Origin: Pirellula staleyi DSM 6068 | GTDB taxonomy: Bacteria > Planctomycetota > Planctomycetia > Pirellulales > Pirellulaceae | Direction of reading: 5' to 3' | NCBI GenBank assembly: GCA_945900945.1 | Contig: CAMDKL010000034.1 | Location: 1 to 42,552, forward strand | Length of the DNA: 42,552 bases | Shown: piece by piece, positions 2,983 to 14,902 of the stretch | How positions within the stretch are numbered: position 1 is the first letter of the stretch | How the letters are laid out: each line of letters opens with the position of its first letter | Position numbers and translations under genes: made by a program | Notes under the pieces: model-generated | The model's database searches: none | The model's input: the letters and a program-made list of their open reading frames with translations, nothing else | What the model was told of the DNA's origin: nothing

Positions 2983-3082
2983 GTGTAGCACGGCACTCCG
3001 TGCCGTGATCTGCACACGATCGCAAAGGCGCTGAGTCCTGCCTCTTTTATCGATCGCGACGGCAGGGAGTGCCGTTTTACAC
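2983..3082. repeat. REP palindrome pair downstream of the RAYT gene
   Basis: REP copy 1 (2983-3008) is GTGTAG followed by CACGGCAC-TCC-GTGCCGTG, a perfect 8-bp stem. Copy 2 (about 3058-3082) is inverted and slightly degenerate (stem spoiled by one base) and ends in TTTTACAC. Head-to-tail inverted pairing makes a BIME-like unit. The pair lies just past the 3' end of the transposase gene at 3099-3761 and shares its GTGTAG/CTACAC tail with the other copies in this island. Confidence 0.8.
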
Positions 3083-3098
3083 TGGTTGCCGTTCTCTG

Positions 3099-3761
3099 CT
3101 AGGCTTTCTTGAACAAATAGTCAGACGCCGGTCGTTTTGCGGCGACTCCATTTTGGGCAATGTAGTCGCGGAGATAGAGAAACTGTTCTGAACTGCGGAT
3201 CAGGTGATCAAACGGTTCGCCTTGCCAAAAGCAGCCTTTTTGGCCGATCCGAATATTGATTTCCTTTGCAGTAAATCGTTGCCAGTTCGTACATTGTCCA
3301 CGGCATGTAGTTGGCAGATAGAACATCGCGATCAGGTGCACGTGGTTTGGCATTACGATGGCGCAGTCGATCTCGTAACGAGAACCATTGAAATGCCAAA
3401 GTGATTCTAAGACGCATTCCGCTAATTCGCGATTGCGTAAATGGCACGCTCCATGGCAAGCGTCTAAATGCCAATGAAAAAGACGATCACGCATTTTTCG
3501 GAATGAAGTCTGTAGGTTAGCTGGCAATTGTTTCCAAGGCGGCAATTCATGGTCTGCTTCGATTGTGAATCCTTGGCGGAGCAACCAATCACGTTGTTGC
3601 CTATCCCATAGTTCGATTCCATCGCAAGGCATTGAGTCGAGGGTTCGTATGGTTATAAAAACAGCGACACCTGGCTGGAACCAATGGGGCAGATTGCGAG
3701 CGGAGACATCAACCTCAGCCTCTGGGTCAAAGGCGCCAAACTGCGAAAACTTCTCGGACAT
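3099..3761 (-). CDS. REP-associated tyrosine transposase (RAYT, Y1_Tnp/TnpA_REP family)
   Basis: A 220-residue single-strand DNA transposase of the HUH class. Residues 135-143 contain the metal-binding H140-V-H142 motif in VMPNHVHLI. The downstream helix (FDHLIRSSEQFLYLRDYIAQNG region, residues ~184-204) carries Tyr200, the likely nucleophile. FWQGEPFDH is typical of the family. RAYTs are domesticated relatives of IS200/IS605 transposases that bind and cut REP hairpins. Here the gene is flanked on both sides by the matching palindromes (2983-4319), so the gene plus repeats form a self-contained REP unit. Length and motifs are intact. It sits between cas2 and csb2 and interrupts an otherwise contiguous I-G operon. 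No role in CRISPR immunity is shown. Confidence 0.9.
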   Translation of the reverse strand: MSEKFSQFGAFDPEAEVDVSARNLPHWFQPGVAVFITIRTLDSMPCDGIELWDRQQRDWLLRQGFTIEADHELPPWKQLPANLQTSFRKMRDRLFHWHLDACHGACHLRNRELAECVLESLWHFNGSRYEIDCAIVMPNHVHLIAMFYLPTTCRGQCTNWQRFTAKEINIRIGQKGCFWQGEPFDHLIRSSEQFLYLRDYIAQNGVAAKRPASDYLFKKA

Positions 3762-3794
3762 AGATTAGGTCCCCAAAAGTATTGCACGAGCTCT

Positions 3795-4001
3795 GTGTAG
3801 CACGGCACTCCGTGCCGTGACCGCAAACTGCAACGACTCCGCGCCGTGATAAACGCGACTGAGCTCGCAAAAAACTCATTCTAGCGGCGTCAAAATATTA
3901 AGTCAAAATGCATAGTCACTAGTCTTCGCTTGGTTGCTGGGCGATAGTGCTGCCGTGGAGCGAGGTTGGCCCAGAAAACGGCACGGAGTGCCGTTCTACA
4001 C
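3795..4001. repeat. REP palindrome pair upstream of the RAYT gene
   Basis: REP copy 3 (3795-3820) is identical in its core to copy 1: GTGTAG then CACGGCACTCCGTGCCGTG. Copy 4 (3978-4001) is inverted, core ACGGCACGGAGTGCCGT then TCTACAC. About 155 bp of sequence with no recognisable gene lies between them, including a partial match (CTCCGCGCCGTG near 3837). Together they form the upstream border of the RAYT unit. Confidence 0.82.
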
Positions 4002-4014
4002 TATCGCACCTCGC

Positions 4015-4143
4015 CTATACCTCGAACAATCTTTCCCATGGCACTGTGGCACGCAGCGCATCAAGCTTTTGCTTTGCCTCCCGCTCTTCCGCCCATTTTT
4101 TAACTTGCTCTTCTGAATCCGGAATATAACGTTCACTTGGCAT
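4015..4143 (-). CDS. Small charged protein, 42 residues, unknown
   Basis: I do not recognise this ORF. Starting at the ATG at 4143 gives MPSERYIPDSEEQVKKWAEE and continues to VPWERLFEV. It is strongly charged and probably one amphipathic helix followed by a short tail. The longer frame back to 4227 runs through REP copy 5 and is probably not the true start. It is flanked by REP copies 4 and 5, so it may be a passenger gene or the relic of a longer one. The Shine-Dalgarno site is poor (AAAGAAATCAAC). A proline-rich C-terminus ending in WERLFEV resembles antitoxin-sized proteins only in size. Confidence 0.4.
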   Translation of the reverse strand: MPSERYIPDSEEQVKKWAEEREAKQKLDALRATVPWERLFEV

Positions 4144-4180
4144 GTTGATTTCTTTCTCGGTGTTCGAGGGCCATGGACCA

Positions 4181-4319
4181 GTGTAGCACGGCTCTCCGAG
4201 CCGTGACCTCCGCGCAGACGCAAACAATACGAAGTACGCAATTCCCCTGCAATCAGCGAGGGCGGACGCAATTCAGCGATTATACGGGCCGGGAAACGGT
4301 TCGGAGAACCGTTCTACAC
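4181..4319. repeat. REP palindrome pair with compensatory stem changes
   Basis: REP copy 5 (4181-4206) reads GTGTAG then CACGGCTCTCCGAGCCGTG. Copy 6 (4294-4319) is inverted: ACGGTTCGGAGAACCGT then TCTACAC. Against copies 1 and 3, both arms have changed together (GGCAC/GTGCC, GGCTC/GAGCC, GGTTC/GAACC), so stem pairing is kept while sequence drifts. The second ends 15 bp before the 118-codon plus-strand gene and may affect its 5' end. Confidence 0.82.
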
Positions 4320-4334
4320 TAATCAGGTACCAAC

Positions 4335-4691
4335 ATGGGAATGTTCAATTCGATCATCGCTGATTTACCTTGCGTTGCAAACAAGGTGACCGCTCGCGGC
4401 GAAATTCAAATCAAATGGCAATCGCCCGAGATGCGATCAGGAGAAGCATTCTATCTTGGCGATACGATGGATGGCATCATGCCCGATTACGACAACGTTT
4501 GGATCAAAACAGACTTCATATGCGAAGCCTGTTCGCCACGCACCAAAGCTCGCGACGACACGAGCTTCATCAAGGTGATGGACCAACACCGACACATCAT
4601 CTTCGTACGCATTGAGAACGGCAGAATTTTGCAAATCATCAGCGAAGACGATTTTAAAACCCTAAAAACCGCCGGTTATGCGGTTGGCTAG
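4335..4691 (+). CDS. Hypothetical protein, 118 residues
   Basis: The only plus-strand gene of the island. It opens MGMFNSIIADLPC, resembling the MGMFD-type small proteins often found on phages and plasmids, to which I cannot assign a function. The rest (WQSPEMRSGEAFYLGD, CEACSP, HIIFVRIENGRILQI) suggests a compact mixed alpha/beta fold without signal peptide or membrane segment. Three cysteines are present, two in the C-x2-C pattern near residue 60, too few for a classical zinc site. The start at 4335 follows AGG 12 bases upstream. Convergent with the CcbP-like gene at 4739-5101. Orientation opposite to cas genes suggests that it arrived independently. Confidence 0.6.
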   Translation: MGMFNSIIADLPCVANKVTARGEIQIKWQSPEMRSGEAFYLGDTMDGIMPDYDNVWIKTDFICEACSPRTKARDDTSFIKVMDQHRHIIFVRIENGRILQIISEDDFKTLKTAGYAVG

Positions 4692-4738
4692 TGCCAGCCG
4701 GCCGCGACAGCGATTCGTATGGAATCAATTATTCTAAA

Positions 4739-5101
4739 TTACATACGTCGCTTCCAATCGAGATACGCAGCGAGAAAGAGATGTCCGTCTGGAAGCGGGC
4801 TCACCAGTTCGACAGATCGTGCTTCGATGCGATGCTGTTGGCCGTTTTGTTCGCAGATTAAGTCGATCCCAAAATCGTCGTTTTCAGGCCATTCTGCCGA
4901 AACCACCTCTACGTCCTCGCCCAGTACTTTGGCCGCAAAAGGGAATTGCATTTCCTCTGCAATCGCATAAAAGAGACCGCTATGCTGTTCGGACGCGTCT
5001 TTTGCATCAACCGTCGCCTCATCGAGTGCCTCACTCACCGCGACCTCATCAAGCTCCTTGTACCACGTCACGTCACTTTTCTTCTTGTTCGTTTTGACCA
5101 T
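4739..5101 (-). CDS. CcbP-like small acidic protein (calcium-binding family candidate)
   Basis: A 120-residue acidic protein. Residues ~45-115 resemble the CcbP (Calci_bind_CcbP) family: an aromatic helix (FYAIAEEMQFPFAAKVLGE) leading into VEVV, an acidic turn (PENDD), a strand with GIDLIC and a closing AAYLDWKRR helix. In cyanobacterial CcbP this fold binds calcium through acidic surface patches. The N-terminal ~40 residues are extra, Lys/Glu/Asp-rich and probably helical. A good ribosome site, AGGAG, lies 11 bases before the ATG. It may be co-transcribed with the 192-residue gene upstream at 5322-5900. Family assignment is from remembered pattern, so moderate. Confidence 0.55.
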   Translation of the reverse strand: MVKTNKKKSDVTWYKELDEVAVSEALDEATVDAKDASEQHSGLFYAIAEEMQFPFAAKVLGEDVEVVSAEWPENDDFGIDLICEQNGQQHRIEARSVELVSPLPDGHLFLAAYLDWKRRM

Positions 5102-5191
5102 GCGGTATGCTCCTATAACCTGAAAAGTACGTCACAATGGCATCGAAACGCCGAGCCGATTCTATACCGCACGCGGTGAACGTTGAACCAG

Positions 5192-5267
5192 GTAGCTGAA
5201 TTCCCAAGAATTCAGACGACCAACGATTGATATGGCGTAGCCTCTGAATTCTTGGGAATTCAGCTAC
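5192..5267. repeat. Perfect 24-bp inverted repeat around EcoRI-like sites
   Basis: Two perfect 24-bp arms at 5192-5215 (GTAGCTGAATTCCCAAG...) and 5244-5267 (its reverse complement) are separated by 28 bp. Each arm itself contains a near palindrome, CTGAATTCCCAAGAATTCAG. It lies between the 120- and 192-residue genes and belongs to a family distinct from the GTGTAG REPs. It could act as a hairpin in the intergenic transcript or be a non-autonomous palindromic element. Confidence 0.8.
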
Positions 5268-5321
5268 GGGTAACATGGGTCATGGACCACCGCGAGCGGG
5301 ATATCTGCCAAACATTGGCCG

Positions 5322-5900
5322 CTACTTCTGGCTAGCTTTTTGTAATGAGCTAAGCTCAGAATCGCAAATAAATCCGACGCAATCGTTTTTGGACATGTCG
5401 CCGCACCATTTTACAACCTGAGATTTTGGCAAGTCGGATTTTTTCAAGGATGCAATGACGACTTTCAAACAATCTGCTATTTCATCGGTCATCATGCCTT
5501 CGTCGCTCATTTCAACTTGACGACTCCCTAGCCGCATCAACTCGAGCGACATCTGCATCACCTCAGCCAGATGCCCGTCCTGGATCAACCTTTGAAAATT
5601 GCGTTCGATTGCGTCATAAGCTACGCTGTCGTAGTCAAAATTGCAGTTGGATTCACGTTCATCGAAGTCCGTCGCCGCGACGATTGCTTTTTTCGTTTCC
5701 TCGATTAACCCCTGCTCCGACAACTGCACGTCGAACCGCCGCATCAAGCTGCGTAGCGTAGTTTGATTATCCTTTGCCAGTTCCAAAATCACATCAACCA
5801 AGGCCACTTTTTCACTTTTCTTTAGTGCTTTGGCAAGTGCATCGAGCGTCTCGCTCGCACCTTTAAGTTTCGGTACAGCCAATTTCCGTTTCGTCGCCAT
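5322..5900 (-). CDS. Hypothetical helical protein, 192 residues
   Basis: Unrecognised. The N-terminus is basic (MATKRKLAVPKLKG) and is followed by predicted helices (ALAKALKKSEKVALVDVILE; TTLRSLMRRFD; AYDAIERNFQRLIQDGHLAE; EVMQMSLELMRLGSRQVE; IADCLKVVIASLKKS). The pattern is that of an all-helical repeat protein, perhaps TPR/HEAT-like, of the kind seen in DUF-type proteins near SWIM-domain proteins. No catalytic motif, signal or membrane segment is visible. The start at 5900 has a strong site, AAGGAG, eight bases upstream. It reads in the same direction as cas genes and could share a transcript with the CcbP-like gene. No function is claimed. Confidence 0.7.
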   Translation of the reverse strand: MATKRKLAVPKLKGASETLDALAKALKKSEKVALVDVILELAKDNQTTLRSLMRRFDVQLSEQGLIEETKKAIVAATDFDERESNCNFDYDSVAYDAIERNFQRLIQDGHLAEVMQMSLELMRLGSRQVEMSDEGMMTDEIADCLKVVIASLKKSDLPKSQVVKWCGDMSKNDCVGFICDSELSSLQKASQK

Positions 5901-6263
5901 GATTTGATCTCCTTTTCAGATTTATTTTATTTGAAGGGGTACAACGACCGCGTCAACTCTCATCATCTGCTTTCGCCCGCAGCAAGGCTGAAGGGCGAGA
6001 GCCATGATAACACGACTCAATTGCAAATAGTTGTCGATCAATTTCTTAAAGAGTGCGATCGTTGTAAGCCACCTGGCAATGAATTGAATTCCGTTTCAGC
6101 AGAATCACGGTTCGGAGAACCGTGCGACACTAAGCTATAAGCCACTTACCGATCAATTGGTCCCAATTCTTTCGTAACTACGGCAGCGATGTCGAAATGT
6201 TTTTCTAGTGTTGCTCGACGGGAAGTAGTTCTTCGAGATGATCTTTGATTTGTTATTGGATTT
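5901..6263. other. Non-coding gap after csb2 with a seventh REP copy
   Basis: No credible gene. A REP copy at 6105-6130 has core CACGGTTCGGAGAACCGTG and tail CGACAC, a variant of the family at 2983-4319 and 1.8 kb from the rest, which suggests that the REP island once extended or was imported in pieces. On the minus strand, 6150-6250 gives open stretches such as IKDHLEELLPVEQH that are broken by stops; they may be remains of a gene between csb2 and the island. The upstream region of the 192-residue gene at 5901-6000 should hold its promoter, but I see no convincing boxes. Confidence 0.5.
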
Positions 6264-7880
6264 TCATTGGTGAGATTGGGCAGCTCCAAAAAGTCCCAAC
6301 CCAAAGTGGCTTGCGTATCCGATCGCAACGGGGCGGTCTGGCATTAGCGGTTCAGTGAAATGAATGCGAATCGCGTATCCGACGTCGATGGGTGGCGGTG
6401 TTTTGGCCCTGCGGACACGAATAAAATGTCGCATTGCCAATGTCGAATCAACCCAAGGAAGAACTTCAATTCGGTCCGGAATCGGAAATCGTCGCGATTC
6501 CAATTCGTTCGTTATTTGACCATCTAGGCAATTGCTTCCCTTTCGCTTGAGATAGCGAGGTGGAACAAACGGTGTGACACTGGCCCATGTCGTGGCCCCT
6601 TGGATTGGACCGAGTAAGCGTTCAAGTTGGCGCATAAGTGGTTCCGGTAAACCTCGAAGTGAATCGAGTGCGCCGCTTCCCGCGAGGGCAAGTTGCATCT
6701 CTCCAACGCCACCTTTGGTCCAGGTGCGACGAAGTGTAGTGATTGCTTGTTGCGCAGCGTCGCCCAATCCCATGGGCGCGTGAATGATGATGTGATCGAG
6801 ATGTCCATCGCAGTCCAAGTCCACGGGAAAGACATGGGCGTGTTCGTGGCAGCCTTTAAGTGGTTCTCCATGATTGTCTTTTCCCGTCAGCTCTGGACAA
6901 AACACACGTCCTCCCTTGGCAACGCGACCAACGATCGCGCGATGCAATAATTCTGCCTGTGGCAGTGTCCTTGCTACTGGTGGCAATGCCGATTTATTAC
7001 CGCTTGGTGTCGTGATCGCCAATAGCATCGTGGTCACGGAGCGAGCCACCGGACGGACTGTTCGTTGCGGAACCCCAACTTCGAGGGAATCACTACGTCG
7101 CCAGTAGACCACACGTTGTGAACCTGGCGGTTGGCTCCAGCGGTGCTGTTTCCACCACGCTGTGTCTTTTTGCAGACAATCAAGCATATCGGTGGGGTAC
7201 GGAGCGACGACTCGAGCGCGGTCTTTGAGCAACTTGGGGGTAGGTTTCTTTTTGCCCTCCGGTAACGGAAACTCCAAAAGAAGTTTATCTGTGATCCCAG
7301 ATCGCCAAGATTGGTATTCGGCAACGTTTGTCGCAGCCATCAGGGTGATTTGTTCCCAGTTTCGATCTAGACTGTGACCATTCGCATTTGGGAAAGCATT
7401 GAACTCGATGTCTTCGATTGCGGAATCAGCGAGCAATTCCGCTTCGACCCAACTTTCGCTTCGTCCTAGGTATCCGAGACACTCGATGAGCCGCTTAAGA
7501 AGTTCCGATTCATCACTTTCTAACGCACAATCCCAACGAACGATCAGATCTTCGTCGCTGACATTCGCCCATGTATCGAAAACGAGTGTCGTTTTCTCGC
7601 GACCCTTATCCAATGTCCCGACAGGCATGTAGTGCCGACTGTGGGCGGCACTTGCCGAAGGTAAACGATAAGATGGCAAGCATTGCGACAACTTCTCAAT
7701 CATGGATCGTGCGACCTCAGGCAACTCGACCCATTGCTGCGTGTTATATCCACAAGCGATCAGTGCCCGCAGCAATCGCCAAGGACTGGGCGGCCATTCG
7801 ACCTGGCCCTCATTAACATGGTGTCCCCAAGGGGTTGCATGATAACGTCCTCCGGGGAATCGCATTTTGACGGTCGGCAT
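6264..7880 (-). CDS. csb2: Csb2, Cas5-Cas6 fusion of type I-G
   Basis: A 538-residue protein of the GSU0054/Csb2 family. The N-terminal part (MPTVKMRFPGGRYHATPWG, then VEWPPSPWRLLRALIACG) is the signature of the Cas5-like domain. The C-terminal ~200 residues (HLDHIIIHAPMGL onward) form a RAMP fold and end in the glycine-rich Cas6-type motif AIGYASHFGLGLFG near residues 521-533. It should process the precursor crRNA within the 36-base repeat and cap the crRNA 5' handle in the effector. It starts three bases after the csb1 stop and is the last gene of the interference operon before the island. No lesion seen. Confidence 0.93.
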   Translation of the reverse strand: MPTVKMRFPGGRYHATPWGHHVNEGQVEWPPSPWRLLRALIACGYNTQQWVELPEVARSMIEKLSQCLPSYRLPSASAAHSRHYMPVGTLDKGREKTTLVFDTWANVSDEDLIVRWDCALESDESELLKRLIECLGYLGRSESWVEAELLADSAIEDIEFNAFPNANGHSLDRNWEQITLMAATNVAEYQSWRSGITDKLLLEFPLPEGKKKPTPKLLKDRARVVAPYPTDMLDCLQKDTAWWKQHRWSQPPGSQRVVYWRRSDSLEVGVPQRTVRPVARSVTTMLLAITTPSGNKSALPPVARTLPQAELLHRAIVGRVAKGGRVFCPELTGKDNHGEPLKGCHEHAHVFPVDLDCDGHLDHIIIHAPMGLGDAAQQAITTLRRTWTKGGVGEMQLALAGSGALDSLRGLPEPLMRQLERLLGPIQGATTWASVTPFVPPRYLKRKGSNCLDGQITNELESRRFPIPDRIEVLPWVDSTLAMRHFIRVRRAKTPPPIDVGYAIRIHFTEPLMPDRPVAIGYASHFGLGLFGAAQSHQ

Positions 7881-7883
7881 CGT

Positions 7884-11312
<3,429 letters not shown>

Positions 11313-11316
<4 letters not shown>

Positions 11317-12209
11317 TTTGATGTGTCCTGAATCAACATGTCGTTCATGGTTTCGATTTTCTCGCCGAGTGAGTTGTTGAAGCGTCGTCGAATGAGGCTG
11401 TTTGGTGAAGCTCGAATTCGGCTTCGATCTCTTCGATGCTTGGTAAGCTGCTTTTTAGCGGTTCGGGCAGAGAATCTACCAACTATGTGCATCTGCTGGC
11501 CGACGAATGCGAAACCAGCTCCCATTTCTAGAAGGAACTTGCGAATGTGATCGACCAGACCGCTTTCAAGATCACGCTCGATGGCCTCGGTATGAAGTGT
11601 CAGGAAGTCGAAGATGTATGGGTCTTTTAATGTATGTTGGACAAGGTCTGATTGAGGAGACGGAAGCGTGTTCGTGAAATTGCTGATCGCCTTCCCCTGG
11701 CGACCGTAAAGATCGCTTTCGATTTGGATCGTAAGGATCGCGCGGCTCCAACCGTGCTCAAGGGTGGGCTGATGGAAATACAAGCCCGACGCGCAAGCGA
11801 GGGGTCGGAACCATCCCTCGCTTGCGCGTCGGGCTTGTATTGAAACCGTTAGTTCAACTATTGGCTGCGATTTCATCCAACCGTGCTCAAGGGTTCTCGT
11901 CGCGTACCAGAGACGCTGGACTGGAACTTTAAGCTTCTCGAAGATGAGGACGTTGTGATACCAAGGAATTCCTGACACAGCCTGTGGTAGAATCGAATCA
12001 TTCAATTCCGTCACAGCTTGTGACAGATTTGTTGCAAGCAATTCTCGCGCAGGCTGCGCGAGAATTTGTGCTCCTGTTCGATACTTTAGGAAAAACGCCC
12101 GCATTCGCCAGAGATTCCCAGGTGAAAACCCTTTGATTCCCGGGAAATTTATCTGAATGTCGGCCGCCAGCCGATCAACAACACTCTTGCCCCAGCCCTC
12201 GCGATCCAT
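11313..12209 (-). pseudogene. Decayed DUF1016/YhcG-type PDDEXK nuclease inside the cas operon
   Basis: A 298-codon open frame that matches the YhcG/DUF1016 family. Recognisable blocks are EGWGKSVVDRLAADIQ, GFSPGNLWRMRAFF, ISGIPWYHNVLIFEKL (here VSGIPWYHNVLIFE), LEHGWSRAILTIQIES, GRQGKAISNF, LPSPQSDLVQHTLKDPYIFDF and HIRKFLLEMGAGFAFVGQQ. Four lesions are visible. The N-terminus lacks ~45 residues and begins exactly at the cas3 stop (TGATG). A 43-codon insertion splits the LEHGW motif. The catalytic core after GFAFVGQQMHIVG (family pattern FYIDLLFYH...VIELK) is gone. An extra A in a run (11452-11456) shifts the frame; the other frame reads SSLPSIEEIEAEF, the expected family end. Nuclease activity is therefore improbable, but the ORF still couples cas3 to csx17. 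Confidence 0.85.
11777..11841. repeat. 27-bp perfect inverted repeat, palindromic element in the DUF1016 relic
   Basis: Arms 11777-11803 and 11815-11841 are perfect reverse complements (outer part AATACAAGCCCGACGCGCAA) with an 11-base loop. In the minus frame it is translated as QARRASEG...LACASGL, a peptide produced by this palindrome wherever it lies in frame. I recall similar palindromes in Rhodopirellula-type genomes. A 19-bp direct repeat, TCCAACCGTGCTCAAGGGT, flanks it at 11747-11765 and 11876-11894, 129 bp apart, so the insertion kept the reading frame. Confidence 0.88.
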
Positions 12210-14902
12210 CAGGTCACCACTTTCAATGCTTCGCTTAAAGTTGGATCGTTGGTTTTTAAACGCGAAGCTCGAACGTCAGCGGCTCTCAAGATTGATTCCA
12301 AGAATGCAAGCGTCGTTGGTCCATGCCGATCAAGTAGACCCAAACACCGTTCTCGCCAGCTTGCACCGGTTCGTAAGGAAAGCCCAAGGGTCGCGGGTTC
12401 GAGCGTCAAGTAGAGCTCTGGGAATCGCTCGGCTGAATCGTCGATGCAGAAGGAAGGCAGGCGATCCCCTTCACGAACACCGCGAATGGGCAAACCACGA
12501 TGGTCGTTGTCGCGATATTGCTGATCTTTGGTGGATGCATGCAAGGCCGCGCGGACTTTACCGTGATGCGATGCAATCAGATAGACCAGCAAGTCAAACG
12601 ATTCGGCAGAACAATCTAGAATCTCTTGCACAGCCAAGGGAACAGAGCTTGCGTCCGTTGCAGGCTTTGCCGTGTGGCCCGCAGGCTTTGCCGTGTGGCC
12701 CATAGCGGCGAACGCTTCCGACCAGCTTCCTAATAAAGCGGGATGGTCGGGATGGTAGGTTTCGAGCAACGCAAACATGGCCAACGCACTGGCCAACTCA
12801 TGGCGAAAACCTGGGCGATCCTCGCTGTCATCTTCAAATCGATAGGTTCCGCGTGGCTTGAGCCACGATCCGTTAGGGCCCTTTGCTAAGTCATGGCGCG
12901 GCGGACGGTCGTTGTTACGGATGGCTCCTTGAAATGCCGGATGGGACTTGCCGATGTCATGCCAGATCGCGGCCAATTTAAGTAACGAGCGAAGTTCAAT
13001 CGGCAGTGCGATGCCGTCCGCAATCTCCTTCACTTCCTGCACAACCTCGTTGCTATGACAAGCGATCGTCTTCCAGGGACTAAAGCTCAGCTCTTCGCCG
13101 TCTTCGCAATTGTCCGCCAGCGATGATTTATTTACTAGCGTTTCCGTGCTAACATCGACGGGAGGCACGATCTTCTTAACGTCCGGTGCGAATCCGCTTT
13201 CGAGATCATAACCGCCGCATGCAGAGTCAATACAAATTACACGACCGGGCAATAAATTTTCACGTCTCGGTGCTAACCACTTGCCATCGATCCAATCCCA
13301 AATCCATGCTCGCATGCCACTACGGAGCTTTGGCTTGCGGTTTGTCTTTGTTTCTGCTCCGCAAAGCCAGCCTCGCGCTTTTAGAAACGGCACGCTGCAC
13401 AGTTCACGCCGATGAGGCTGAAGTTCGTCAGACGGGATTTCGTCTTTAGCCAGTGATCTCCAAAAAATCTGAACGTCCCGTTCATCACCGGTGCGTATGA
13501 AGCGGCTGATATCCAAATCCGCTCCGGTCAGGTCCGGCGTCGTGTCGAAGAGCTCGTCAAACTCATTACGCAATAACAAATGTGCAGGAACGTAGGGATA
13601 GAGAGTAGCTCTCGCCTCCGCTGTCAATGAATCCTCAAACTCTTCAATCGCCTTAACTCCAACTCCAACATCCTTGAGAAGTTGCAAACTACTCCATGCA
13701 CTTTCCAATTCTTCCGGTGAATAGGGCGGACTGGTCTTCTCGTCATGGCCTCGATCTACCACGATGACTCGTCCCTCGCCGCCATAGCGGGCGCAGCGTC
13801 CGAATCGCTGAACAAGACTGGGCCAGGGAGCCAACTCGGTAACAAGACAAGTTGCTGAAATGTCGACTCCTGCTTCCACGACTTGGGTTGCCACGATAAC
13901 TCGATCGCTATGGGATTTACATGATTCTCGCGTCAAAAATCGCTCGCGCCATGATTCCCGTTCCGCTGGACGAAAACGACTGTGAACCAACTCGATGCCG
14001 TCGGTTCGTCCTGCCATCCTGAGTTCGGTAAATGTCTCGGACGCACGATCGACAGTATTGCAAACAACCAAAGTGATTTTCCCGTGGTCTCCAGCAGTTG
14101 ACTCGTCGTGTGCAGTAAGTATCCGTTTGGCGAATTCGCTCGCTTTTTTTGCCTCAATGGCATCGGTCTCACAGATCTTATGGATTTCCCACAAGCCACC
14201 CGACCTCTGCGGTGCAGGAATCGAACATATGTCGTTCGTCCACTGAACGTAGTAGGATTCGGTATCCACGCTTTTCAGCCAATCGGGCTGAAGCGTTGCG
14301 CTCATCCACCAGGTAACACAGGGGCGTATGGATTTGTCTCGGTCTTGATCGCGGAAGGCTTGGAGTTGCGCTGATGTTGCCAAGCCGACGTCCATTAGTT
14401 GCACTTCGTCCATGACCCACAATGCGTCGTGATTTAACAATCCATACTCGACCGGCCATCGCGCGCGGCTGCATGCAAATCCTCGATTGAGTGCTCGCGA
14501 CAGCAACATGTCTTGCGTCCCGATCAGAATTGCAGGTCGTTCCGGACAAACATGCCAATCCGATTGCTCAACTCCACCCATGAGCATGTGGGCGTCGACC
14601 TCTAAGGCGAGGCCAGCCTGGGAGATGATTCTATTTGCTTCAGCATGTGTTTGTTCTACAAGCGTTCGCGTCGGTAAACACCAAACCAGACGAGTTGGCC
14701 ATGATTTGTCCGCTCGGTTTATGCGATGGTAGGTCCAGGCCAACAGAACACCCAGCGTTTTTCCCATGCCGGTTGGAATACGGATGAGGCGGTTCTTGCA
14801 TTGCAAGCTCGATGCCAAATCTGCTTGCCATGAATGCGGCGCATGTCCAGCGTGGACAACCGACGCATTACCAGTTTGGAACCAAGTCGTAAAATCATTC
14901 AT
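12209..14902 (-). CDS. cas3: Cas3, helicase with C-terminal HD nuclease, type I-G
   Basis: An 897-residue interference helicase-nuclease. SF2 helicase motifs are Walker A PTGMGKT (43-49), DEVQ (165-168), SAT (201-203), ATQVVEAGVD (338-347) and QRFGRCAR (365-372). The HD nuclease follows instead of leading: WHDIGK (H648, D649), FRHE (H701) and SHHGK (H779, H780). Helicase-then-HD order is the type I-G arrangement. A duplicated GHTAKPA pair at residues ~735-747 comes from a 21-bp tandem repeat at 12660-12701, in a loop between HD helices. The ATG at 14902 follows an AGGGAGG site. It is the first gene of the interference operon; its stop overlaps the next start (TGATG). Confidence 0.95.
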   Translation of the reverse strand: MNDFTTWFQTGNASVVHAGHAPHSWQADLASSLQCKNRLIRIPTGMGKTLGVLLAWTYHRINRADKSWPTRLVWCLPTRTLVEQTHAEANRIISQAGLALEVDAHMLMGGVEQSDWHVCPERPAILIGTQDMLLSRALNRGFACSRARWPVEYGLLNHDALWVMDEVQLMDVGLATSAQLQAFRDQDRDKSIRPCVTWWMSATLQPDWLKSVDTESYYVQWTNDICSIPAPQRSGGLWEIHKICETDAIEAKKASEFAKRILTAHDESTAGDHGKITLVVCNTVDRASETFTELRMAGRTDGIELVHSRFRPAERESWRERFLTRESCKSHSDRVIVATQVVEAGVDISATCLVTELAPWPSLVQRFGRCARYGGEGRVIVVDRGHDEKTSPPYSPEELESAWSSLQLLKDVGVGVKAIEEFEDSLTAEARATLYPYVPAHLLLRNEFDELFDTTPDLTGADLDISRFIRTGDERDVQIFWRSLAKDEIPSDELQPHRRELCSVPFLKARGWLCGAETKTNRKPKLRSGMRAWIWDWIDGKWLAPRRENLLPGRVICIDSACGGYDLESGFAPDVKKIVPPVDVSTETLVNKSSLADNCEDGEELSFSPWKTIACHSNEVVQEVKEIADGIALPIELRSLLKLAAIWHDIGKSHPAFQGAIRNNDRPPRHDLAKGPNGSWLKPRGTYRFEDDSEDRPGFRHELASALAMFALLETYHPDHPALLGSWSEAFAAMGHTAKPAGHTAKPATDASSVPLAVQEILDCSAESFDLLVYLIASHHGKVRAALHASTKDQQYRDNDHRGLPIRGVREGDRLPSFCIDDSAERFPELYLTLEPATLGLSLRTGASWRERCLGLLDRHGPTTLAFLESILRAADVRASRLKTNDPTLSEALKVVT

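Follow-up and report, generated by a model that had tools for sequence, protein, structure and literature searches.

A broken DUF1016 (YhcG) nuclease gene at the cas3/csx17 junction of a type I-G CRISPR-Cas operon, probably the relic of an acquired companion

Between cas3 and csx17 of a type I-G CRISPR-Cas operon lies an open reading frame of 298 codons (positions 11313-12209, minus strand, of the 42,552-nucleotide stretch of Pirellula staleyi DNA that was analysed, hereafter the window) which, judged by sequence comparison, is probably a recently broken DUF1016 (YhcG) PD-(D/E)XK nuclease gene that the operon had acquired as a companion at this junction. We favour this reading because the relic forms a clade with an intact gene from another genome of the family, G427 (support 100/94 in a 57-row tree), because that intact gene ends with an ATGA on a remnant of csx17, because a second DUF1016 lineage (clade B) occurs in type I-G loci only, and because the relic's own lineage (type A) is kin to genes that sit upstream of hsdR in restriction operons. 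While intact, the nuclease would have been translated together with Cas3 and Csx17 from one message, with stop-start coupling where the genes overlap, and may have cut invader DNA as the companion of a helicase-nuclease machine, which would be Cas3 here and HsdR in restriction operons. Loss of the N-terminus, in-frame insertion of an element and deletion of the catalytic core have abolished the nuclease of the window. What remains is at most an ORF that is translated but catalytically dead, and ribosomes could still pass through it to csx17.

The ORF between cas3 and csx17 belongs to the DUF1016/YhcG family

The type I-G gene set of the window is complete. On the minus strand it comprises cas3 (Cas3g, 12209-14902; TIGR02621, E 1.2e-223), csx17 (Cas8g, 8890-11316; TIGR04113, E 6.7e-194), csb1 (Cas7g, 7884-8924; TIGR02570 and PF09617), csb2 (Cas5-Cas6, 6264-7880; TIGR02165), cas2 (2619-2909; PF09827), which is separated from csb2 by a gap, and a cas4-cas1 fusion (710-2611; NF049935); a CRISPR array with seven repeats is located at 43-526. 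The operon is thus like type I-G systems in having Cas3g, Csx17/Cas8g, Csb1, Csb2, Cas4-Cas1, Cas2 and an array, and unlike them in the additional ORF that separates cas3 from csx17. The resulting cas3-csx17 distance of 893 nt departs from the usual order, in which csx17 directly follows cas3 (117 of the 123 loci surveyed).

As the initial annotation had described, the ORF starts at the cas3 stop and overlaps both of its neighbours, with a TGATG that joins the cas3 stop to its own start (12207-12211, minus strand) and an ATGA that joins its own stop to the csx17 start (11313-11316, minus strand). The family assignment made at the time also stands, given that Pfam DUF1016_N (E 2.9e-24, profile positions 40-124 of 137) and YhcG_C (E 1.1e-17, positions 2-52 of 157, about the first third of the profile) both match above the Pfam cut-off, if incompletely; the PADLOC model PDC-S02 matches with an E value of 2.6e-66. 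The relic is therefore like the DUF1016/YhcG family (PF17761 plus PF06250; PD-(D/E)XK superfamily; PDC-S02) in that both domains are recognised, and unlike it in lacking the catalytic core and the N-terminus and in carrying an insert. Within its own draft genome (313 contigs), the relic ORF is the only match to PF06250. None of the 16 window proteins scanned has an hsd domain (hsdM, hsdS or hsdR), and the neighbours of the relic are cas genes. Sequence searches against solved structures returned no match for the relic (E up to 0.001) or for the intact G427 protein (E up to 0.1), and a search of the relic against viral contigs likewise gave none.

Two features of the surrounding operon deserve mention. 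The cas3 gene carries a perfect, in-frame tandem duplication of 21 nt (12660-12701), doubling a GHTAKPA-like unit. The gap between cas2 and csb2 contains, at 2983-6133, scattered short palindromic repeats of 26-27 nt that belong to two families, D3 and D4; the two ORFs in this gap (3099-3761 and 5322-5900) had no match in a Pfam search.

The relic carries three kinds of damage

The intact G427 gene (438 aa) served as the reference for locating lesions by blastn and tblastn. Alignment with it bears out the missing N-terminus, the lost catalytic core and the frame shift that had been noticed from the window sequence. The relic lacks the first 60 residues of the G427 gene, its DUF1016 homology beginning right at the cas3 stop with the equivalent of residue 61, and the C-terminus of the window cas3 is about as long as in relatives. 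Also absent are G427 residues 270-360, which include the catalytic IDLLFYH...VIDLK segment, i.e. the catalytic segment of the PD-(D/E)XK fold. This core deletion, with its junction at 11472-11500 (minus strand; placed where one of the two blastn pieces against G427 stops and the other starts), removes about 272 nt net and changes the frame. What remains of the DUF1016 C-terminus (11351-11488, minus strand; a tblastn piece with 50% identity) is in another frame than the ORF. The displaced C-terminal frame would end about 30 nt before csx17, whereas the frame that is actually read stays open up to the ATGA.

A third kind of damage, not named in the initial annotation, is an in-frame insertion of 129 nt by a dispersed palindromic element. 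The element (11766-11875, with arms at 11781-11802 and 11816-11837) lies between two identical 19-bp direct repeats that are 129 nt apart, the first in plus-strand order at 11747-11765 and the second at 11876-11894. Its arm has 46 matches in the draft genome (24 forward, 22 reverse, no more than one mismatch allowed), compared with 0 for the same sequence written backwards, and the minus-strand RNA of 11747-11894 is predicted to fold into a strong hairpin (-73.2 kcal/mol vs. -44.0 kcal/mol for shuffles, z -7.2). We considered misassembly at a palindromic repeat and regard it as unlikely, given the identity of the two 19-bp repeats on either side and the agreement of the element with its other genomic copies. 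As a separate observation, the dispersed element is about 120 nt long, contains a long palindrome, has the ends TGGGCTGATG and CATCAGCCCA, and occurs at other genomic sites besides the relic. Several copies seem to be flanked by short direct repeats, which gives the element the look of a small non-autonomous transposon.

The cas3/csx17 slot is rarely filled, and intact DUF1016 genes are among its occupants

The slot was surveyed in overlapping genome samples, in which csx17 is present in 2 of 27 genomes for the genus, 30 of 241 for the family, 56 of 397 for the class and 26 of 392 for the phylum. Up to 30 csx17 loci per search were examined, together with the best 80 of 475 from a scan of named genome contigs, and merging of duplicates gave 123 distinct readable csx17 starts. 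A cas3 ORF ends within 250 nt of csx17 in 117 of these loci, and two have no visible cas3. Among the 117 empty slots, cas3 ends within 12 nt of csx17 or overlaps it in 104, and 12 of the 117 loci have a long C-terminal extension of Cas3. DUF1016 occupies the slot in four of the 123 loci: the window, G087:C23, G438:C170 and G427:C267. In the class sample, 21 further csx17 loci were examined, and in none of them does DUF1016 precede csx17.

The slot genes of G087 and G438 are intact and are placed between cas3 and csx17 with an ATGA at both ends. The G427 gene is intact as well, has both domains (PF06250 positions 1-156 of 157) and ends with an ATGA on a csx17 remnant of 43 codons, with 33 of the 43 residues identical to the window csx17. 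Since csx17 is only a remnant there, the G427 slot lies outside a working operon of this kind, which counts against the companion reading. A different cas3 follows behind the csx17 remnant, and a second DUF1016 fragment without a nuclease domain precedes the intact gene. Over a longer stretch of this contig (L169:5800-16400), the type I-G remnant with its two DUF1016 genes and 43 csx17 codons directly adjoins a second, different operon of I-G-like type, which gives the impression that one system took the place of the other.

The initial annotation had proposed that relatives with csx17 directly behind cas3 would mark the relic as a one-off insertion. The direct order is indeed what 117 of the 123 loci have, including that of G428, whose csx17 is the nearest to that of the window, but a one-off insertion does not follow from it, since intact genes fill the slot elsewhere. 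The empty slot of G428 would suit the landing of a single DUF1016 fragment without any history in type I-G operons, and together with the low number of filled slots it speaks against an acquired companion. In our view, the intact sister gene that precedes csx17 in G427 and the clade B genes that fill the slots of G087 and G438 in intact form make such a solitary landing highly improbable, and they support the other suggestion made in the initial annotation, namely that an accessory nuclease was once part of the operon and then decayed. The closeness of G428 to the window is seen in the first 43 csx17 residues, of which 37 are identical in G428 and 33 in G427; at the nucleotide level the order is reversed, with 95 of 129 for G428 vs. 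100 for G427. In a csx17 tree (FastTree, 118 rows), the window, G087 and G438, whose filled slots are followed by a full csx17, are apart from each other, and three changes are needed. The 53 csx17-positive genomes contain 45 PF06250 matches in 25 genomes, or 43 genes after merging two split ones. Five of the 43 are within 10 kb of csx17, four without the window, compared to a random expectation of 0.12 that ignores the clustering of defence genes, a point against the companion reading.

Two DUF1016 lineages are found in type I-G loci

In the tree that joins the relic to the type A gene of G427, the next genes are those of G420 and G484. The G420 gene is located downstream of csb2 in a type I-G operon, at a contig end. 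The G484 gene has no cas or hsd match in the surrounding 19.5 kb, and having a non-CRISPR gene within the clade that adjoins the relic's pair is a point against the companion reading. Clade B (support 100/100) has six rows, all six of which are in type I-G loci. Two are the slot genes of G087:C23 and G438:C170; the row from G434:C9 lies between csb2-like and cas3-like genes of a type I-G variant where no csx17 was found; those from G480:C148 and G427:C267 are fragments; and L055 is just before cas3 and cut by the contig start. Clade B was considered as the source of the relic and is ruled out by the tree, which places the relic with the type A gene of G427, outside clade B. The catalytic motif (IDLLFYH...VIDLK or similar) is intact in the genes from G427, G087, G438, G434 and L055. 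Clade B is rare, with matches in 3 of 241 family genomes at E 1e-60 (the G427 fragment falls below this threshold) and in 1 of 392 genomes of the phylum sample at 1e-70. Type A genes give 39 matches in 34 of the 241 family genomes, in settings that include restriction operons.

Remnants of a pair of cas3 and clade B DUF1016 are present at L052:1900-3036 (G087:C23) and L192 (G480:C148), and the two have a similar inserted stretch. In the G087 remnant, an ORF of 371 codons is open across the insert and overlaps cas genes at both ends; the G480 frames contain stops. A toxin-antitoxin module was considered as the identity of the antisense insert in the G087 remnant; a Pfam search of the opposite strand gave no match.

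The type A lineage is shared with Type I restriction operons

The type I-G genes of type A have a sister clade of seven rows, whose own support is weak (92/68). In six of the seven, hsdR is downstream on the same strand, about 1 kb away in G607 and adjacent in G432, G555, G545, G423 and G429; for the seventh row, G437, the sequence ends 76 nt past the gene. In the two loci that were scanned, G423 and G545, the Pfam matches show the DUF1016 gene to be surrounded by hsdM, hsdS and hsdR. Three restriction junctions were read, and these have a 1-nt overlap upstream (TGATG in two, TAATG in one) and an ATGA downstream. More distant type A genes (L274, L275 and L283) are between hsdM-like and hsdS-like genes, and for many other type A loci a search of 1.5 kb on either side, which detects only close hsd relatives, gave neither an hsd nor a cas match. 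The hsdS-DUF1016-hsdR operons therefore resemble the type I-G slot in the DUF1016 lineage, the 1-nt upstream overlap and the downstream ATGA, and differ from the window in the partners, which are hsdM, hsdS and hsdR rather than cas genes. As the type A lineage is often seated in operons of ATP-driven DNA-cutting systems, the type I-G slot looks like another such seat.

These varied settings also bear on a different account, in which the intact DUF1016 gene acts against phages independently, docks in operons at stop-start overlaps for its expression and does nothing for Cas3. Such a passenger gene would explain why type A is present in other settings, restriction operons among them, why the relic and the intact genes match a stand-alone defence candidate, PDC-S02, and why just four of 123 slots are filled; a passage in PMC4316617 moreover reports DUF1016 as known cargo of mobile elements. 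A free passenger would not be expected to give a lineage like clade B, which is found in type I-G loci only and beside unrelated csx17 lineages. We consider this account a serious possibility, though on balance we doubt it, and continue to favour a companion acquired by the operon. With intact cousins in the type I-G slot and close cousins in restriction operons, the comparison hints at a helper nuclease that moves between defence systems. Put more generally, and only tentatively, DUF1016 might be a companion nuclease that can be passed between ATP-driven machines for DNA targeting, with one lineage common to hsdS/hsdR and cas3/csx17 slots, a second that became an accessory gene of type I-G only, translation via overlapping codons in both settings, and a dead ORF that can persist after decay as a translational bridge, as it would in the window.

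The break appears young

Relative to ten intact relatives, the relic changes only one of 77 invariant columns. When the intact rows were left out in turn as a control, 0 to 3 of the invariant columns were changed, except for G303 with 8. Because so few invariant columns have changed and the 19-bp repeats are still identical, the break is likely to be young, and the relic reads as a gene with a long functional history followed by recent breakage. Counts of private amino-acid changes in the relic vs. G427 show an excess in the relic when the outgroup is one of the nearest (G420, 16 vs. 5; G484, 19 vs. 5) and a weaker lean with G437 (14 vs. 6), G607 (12 vs. 6), G432 (13 vs. 5) and G545 (11 vs. 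6). With G423 (8 vs. 9), G429 (10 vs. 10) and G303 (7 vs. 7) as outgroups there is no excess, and this dependence on near outgroups weighs against the companion reading.

Continued constraint on the retained part of the relic is possible, and would be expected if that part were a useful nuclease-dead protein, e.g. a DNA-binding or inhibitory one, under purifying selection. The single changed column, within the range of the intact relatives, is in line with this, as are the dN of 0.144 and dS of 1.28 between the relic and G427 over 164 shared codons (pairwise). However, a pairwise dN/dS mostly reflects the time before the break, and the DUF1016_N domain is interrupted by the insert and has no counterpart of profile positions 1-39, so that we find a retained function of this kind quite improbable.

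The state of the reading frame raises a further alternative. Of the three frames, only one is open in the insert and only one in the tail, and both are the frames used by the relic. This could be the result of selection that keeps the dead ORF open, allowing ribosomes to run from cas3 into the relic, melt the inserted hairpin and start csx17 efficiently. That close coupling of cas3 and csx17 is the rule, as judged from the 104 empty slots mentioned above, favours this possibility, and a passage in PMC3510504 gives a 1-nt overlap as a coupling site in EcoKI. On the other hand, both frames would be open by chance with a frequency of about 1/9 by frame count (0.18 x 0.05 = 0.01 from shuffled sequence), a young break has left little time for stops to arise, and the similar clade B remnant of G480, which is also in a cas context, does contain stop codons. 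Given that the lesions look young, the open frame through the relic needs little explaining, and selection for a translational bridge seems unlikely to us.

Relation to known systems

The DUF1016 gene family is not new, since PDC-S02 is catalogued as a defence candidate and a generic model for CAS-associated PD_DExK proteins matches. The statement in the initial annotation that a YhcG-type nuclease is unheard of near cas genes was too strong: the PADLOC model 'PD_DExK, CAS-I to CAS-VI, associated' (PDLC01464) matches the relic (9.1e-21) as well as the genes from G427 (8.7e-36) and G438 (3.4e-28), and its existence means that such genes near cas loci had been noticed before. Unlike the case described here, where the seat is the type I-G cas3/csx17 junction, that model names no subtype or slot. 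DUF1016 has long been placed among the PD-(D/E)XK nucleases (in a section of PMC1913061), and the PDC-S02 label is in use in part of PMC11719660. The DUF1016 passage of PMC8547009 concerns something other than cas genes. Passages of a paper on the type I-G effector (PMC9638904) have DNA degraded by the HD nuclease of Cas3 and do not contain the word 'accessory', and a term search in the main text of a large clustering survey (PMC10910872) found neither DUF1016 nor type I-G. A literature search, mostly outside subscription journals, returned nothing on a recurrent type I-G slot or on a lineage common with restriction operons, which is weak evidence.

The comparisons suggest that, at a single exact junction, a few type I-G operons gained an additional nuclease, and that Type I restriction operons have one of the lineages involved as well. 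Should the intact genes help Cas3, type I-G interference would have a helper, and relatives that gained or lost it could be compared; otherwise, the junction would be a docking site for passenger defence genes.

Finally, one further locus of G087 (L042:11517-12366, G087:C77) has a csx17 that is 68% identical to that of the window, with palindromic repeats and an ORF in place of the upstream cas3, up to the contig end. This ORF resembles a small REP-type transposase.
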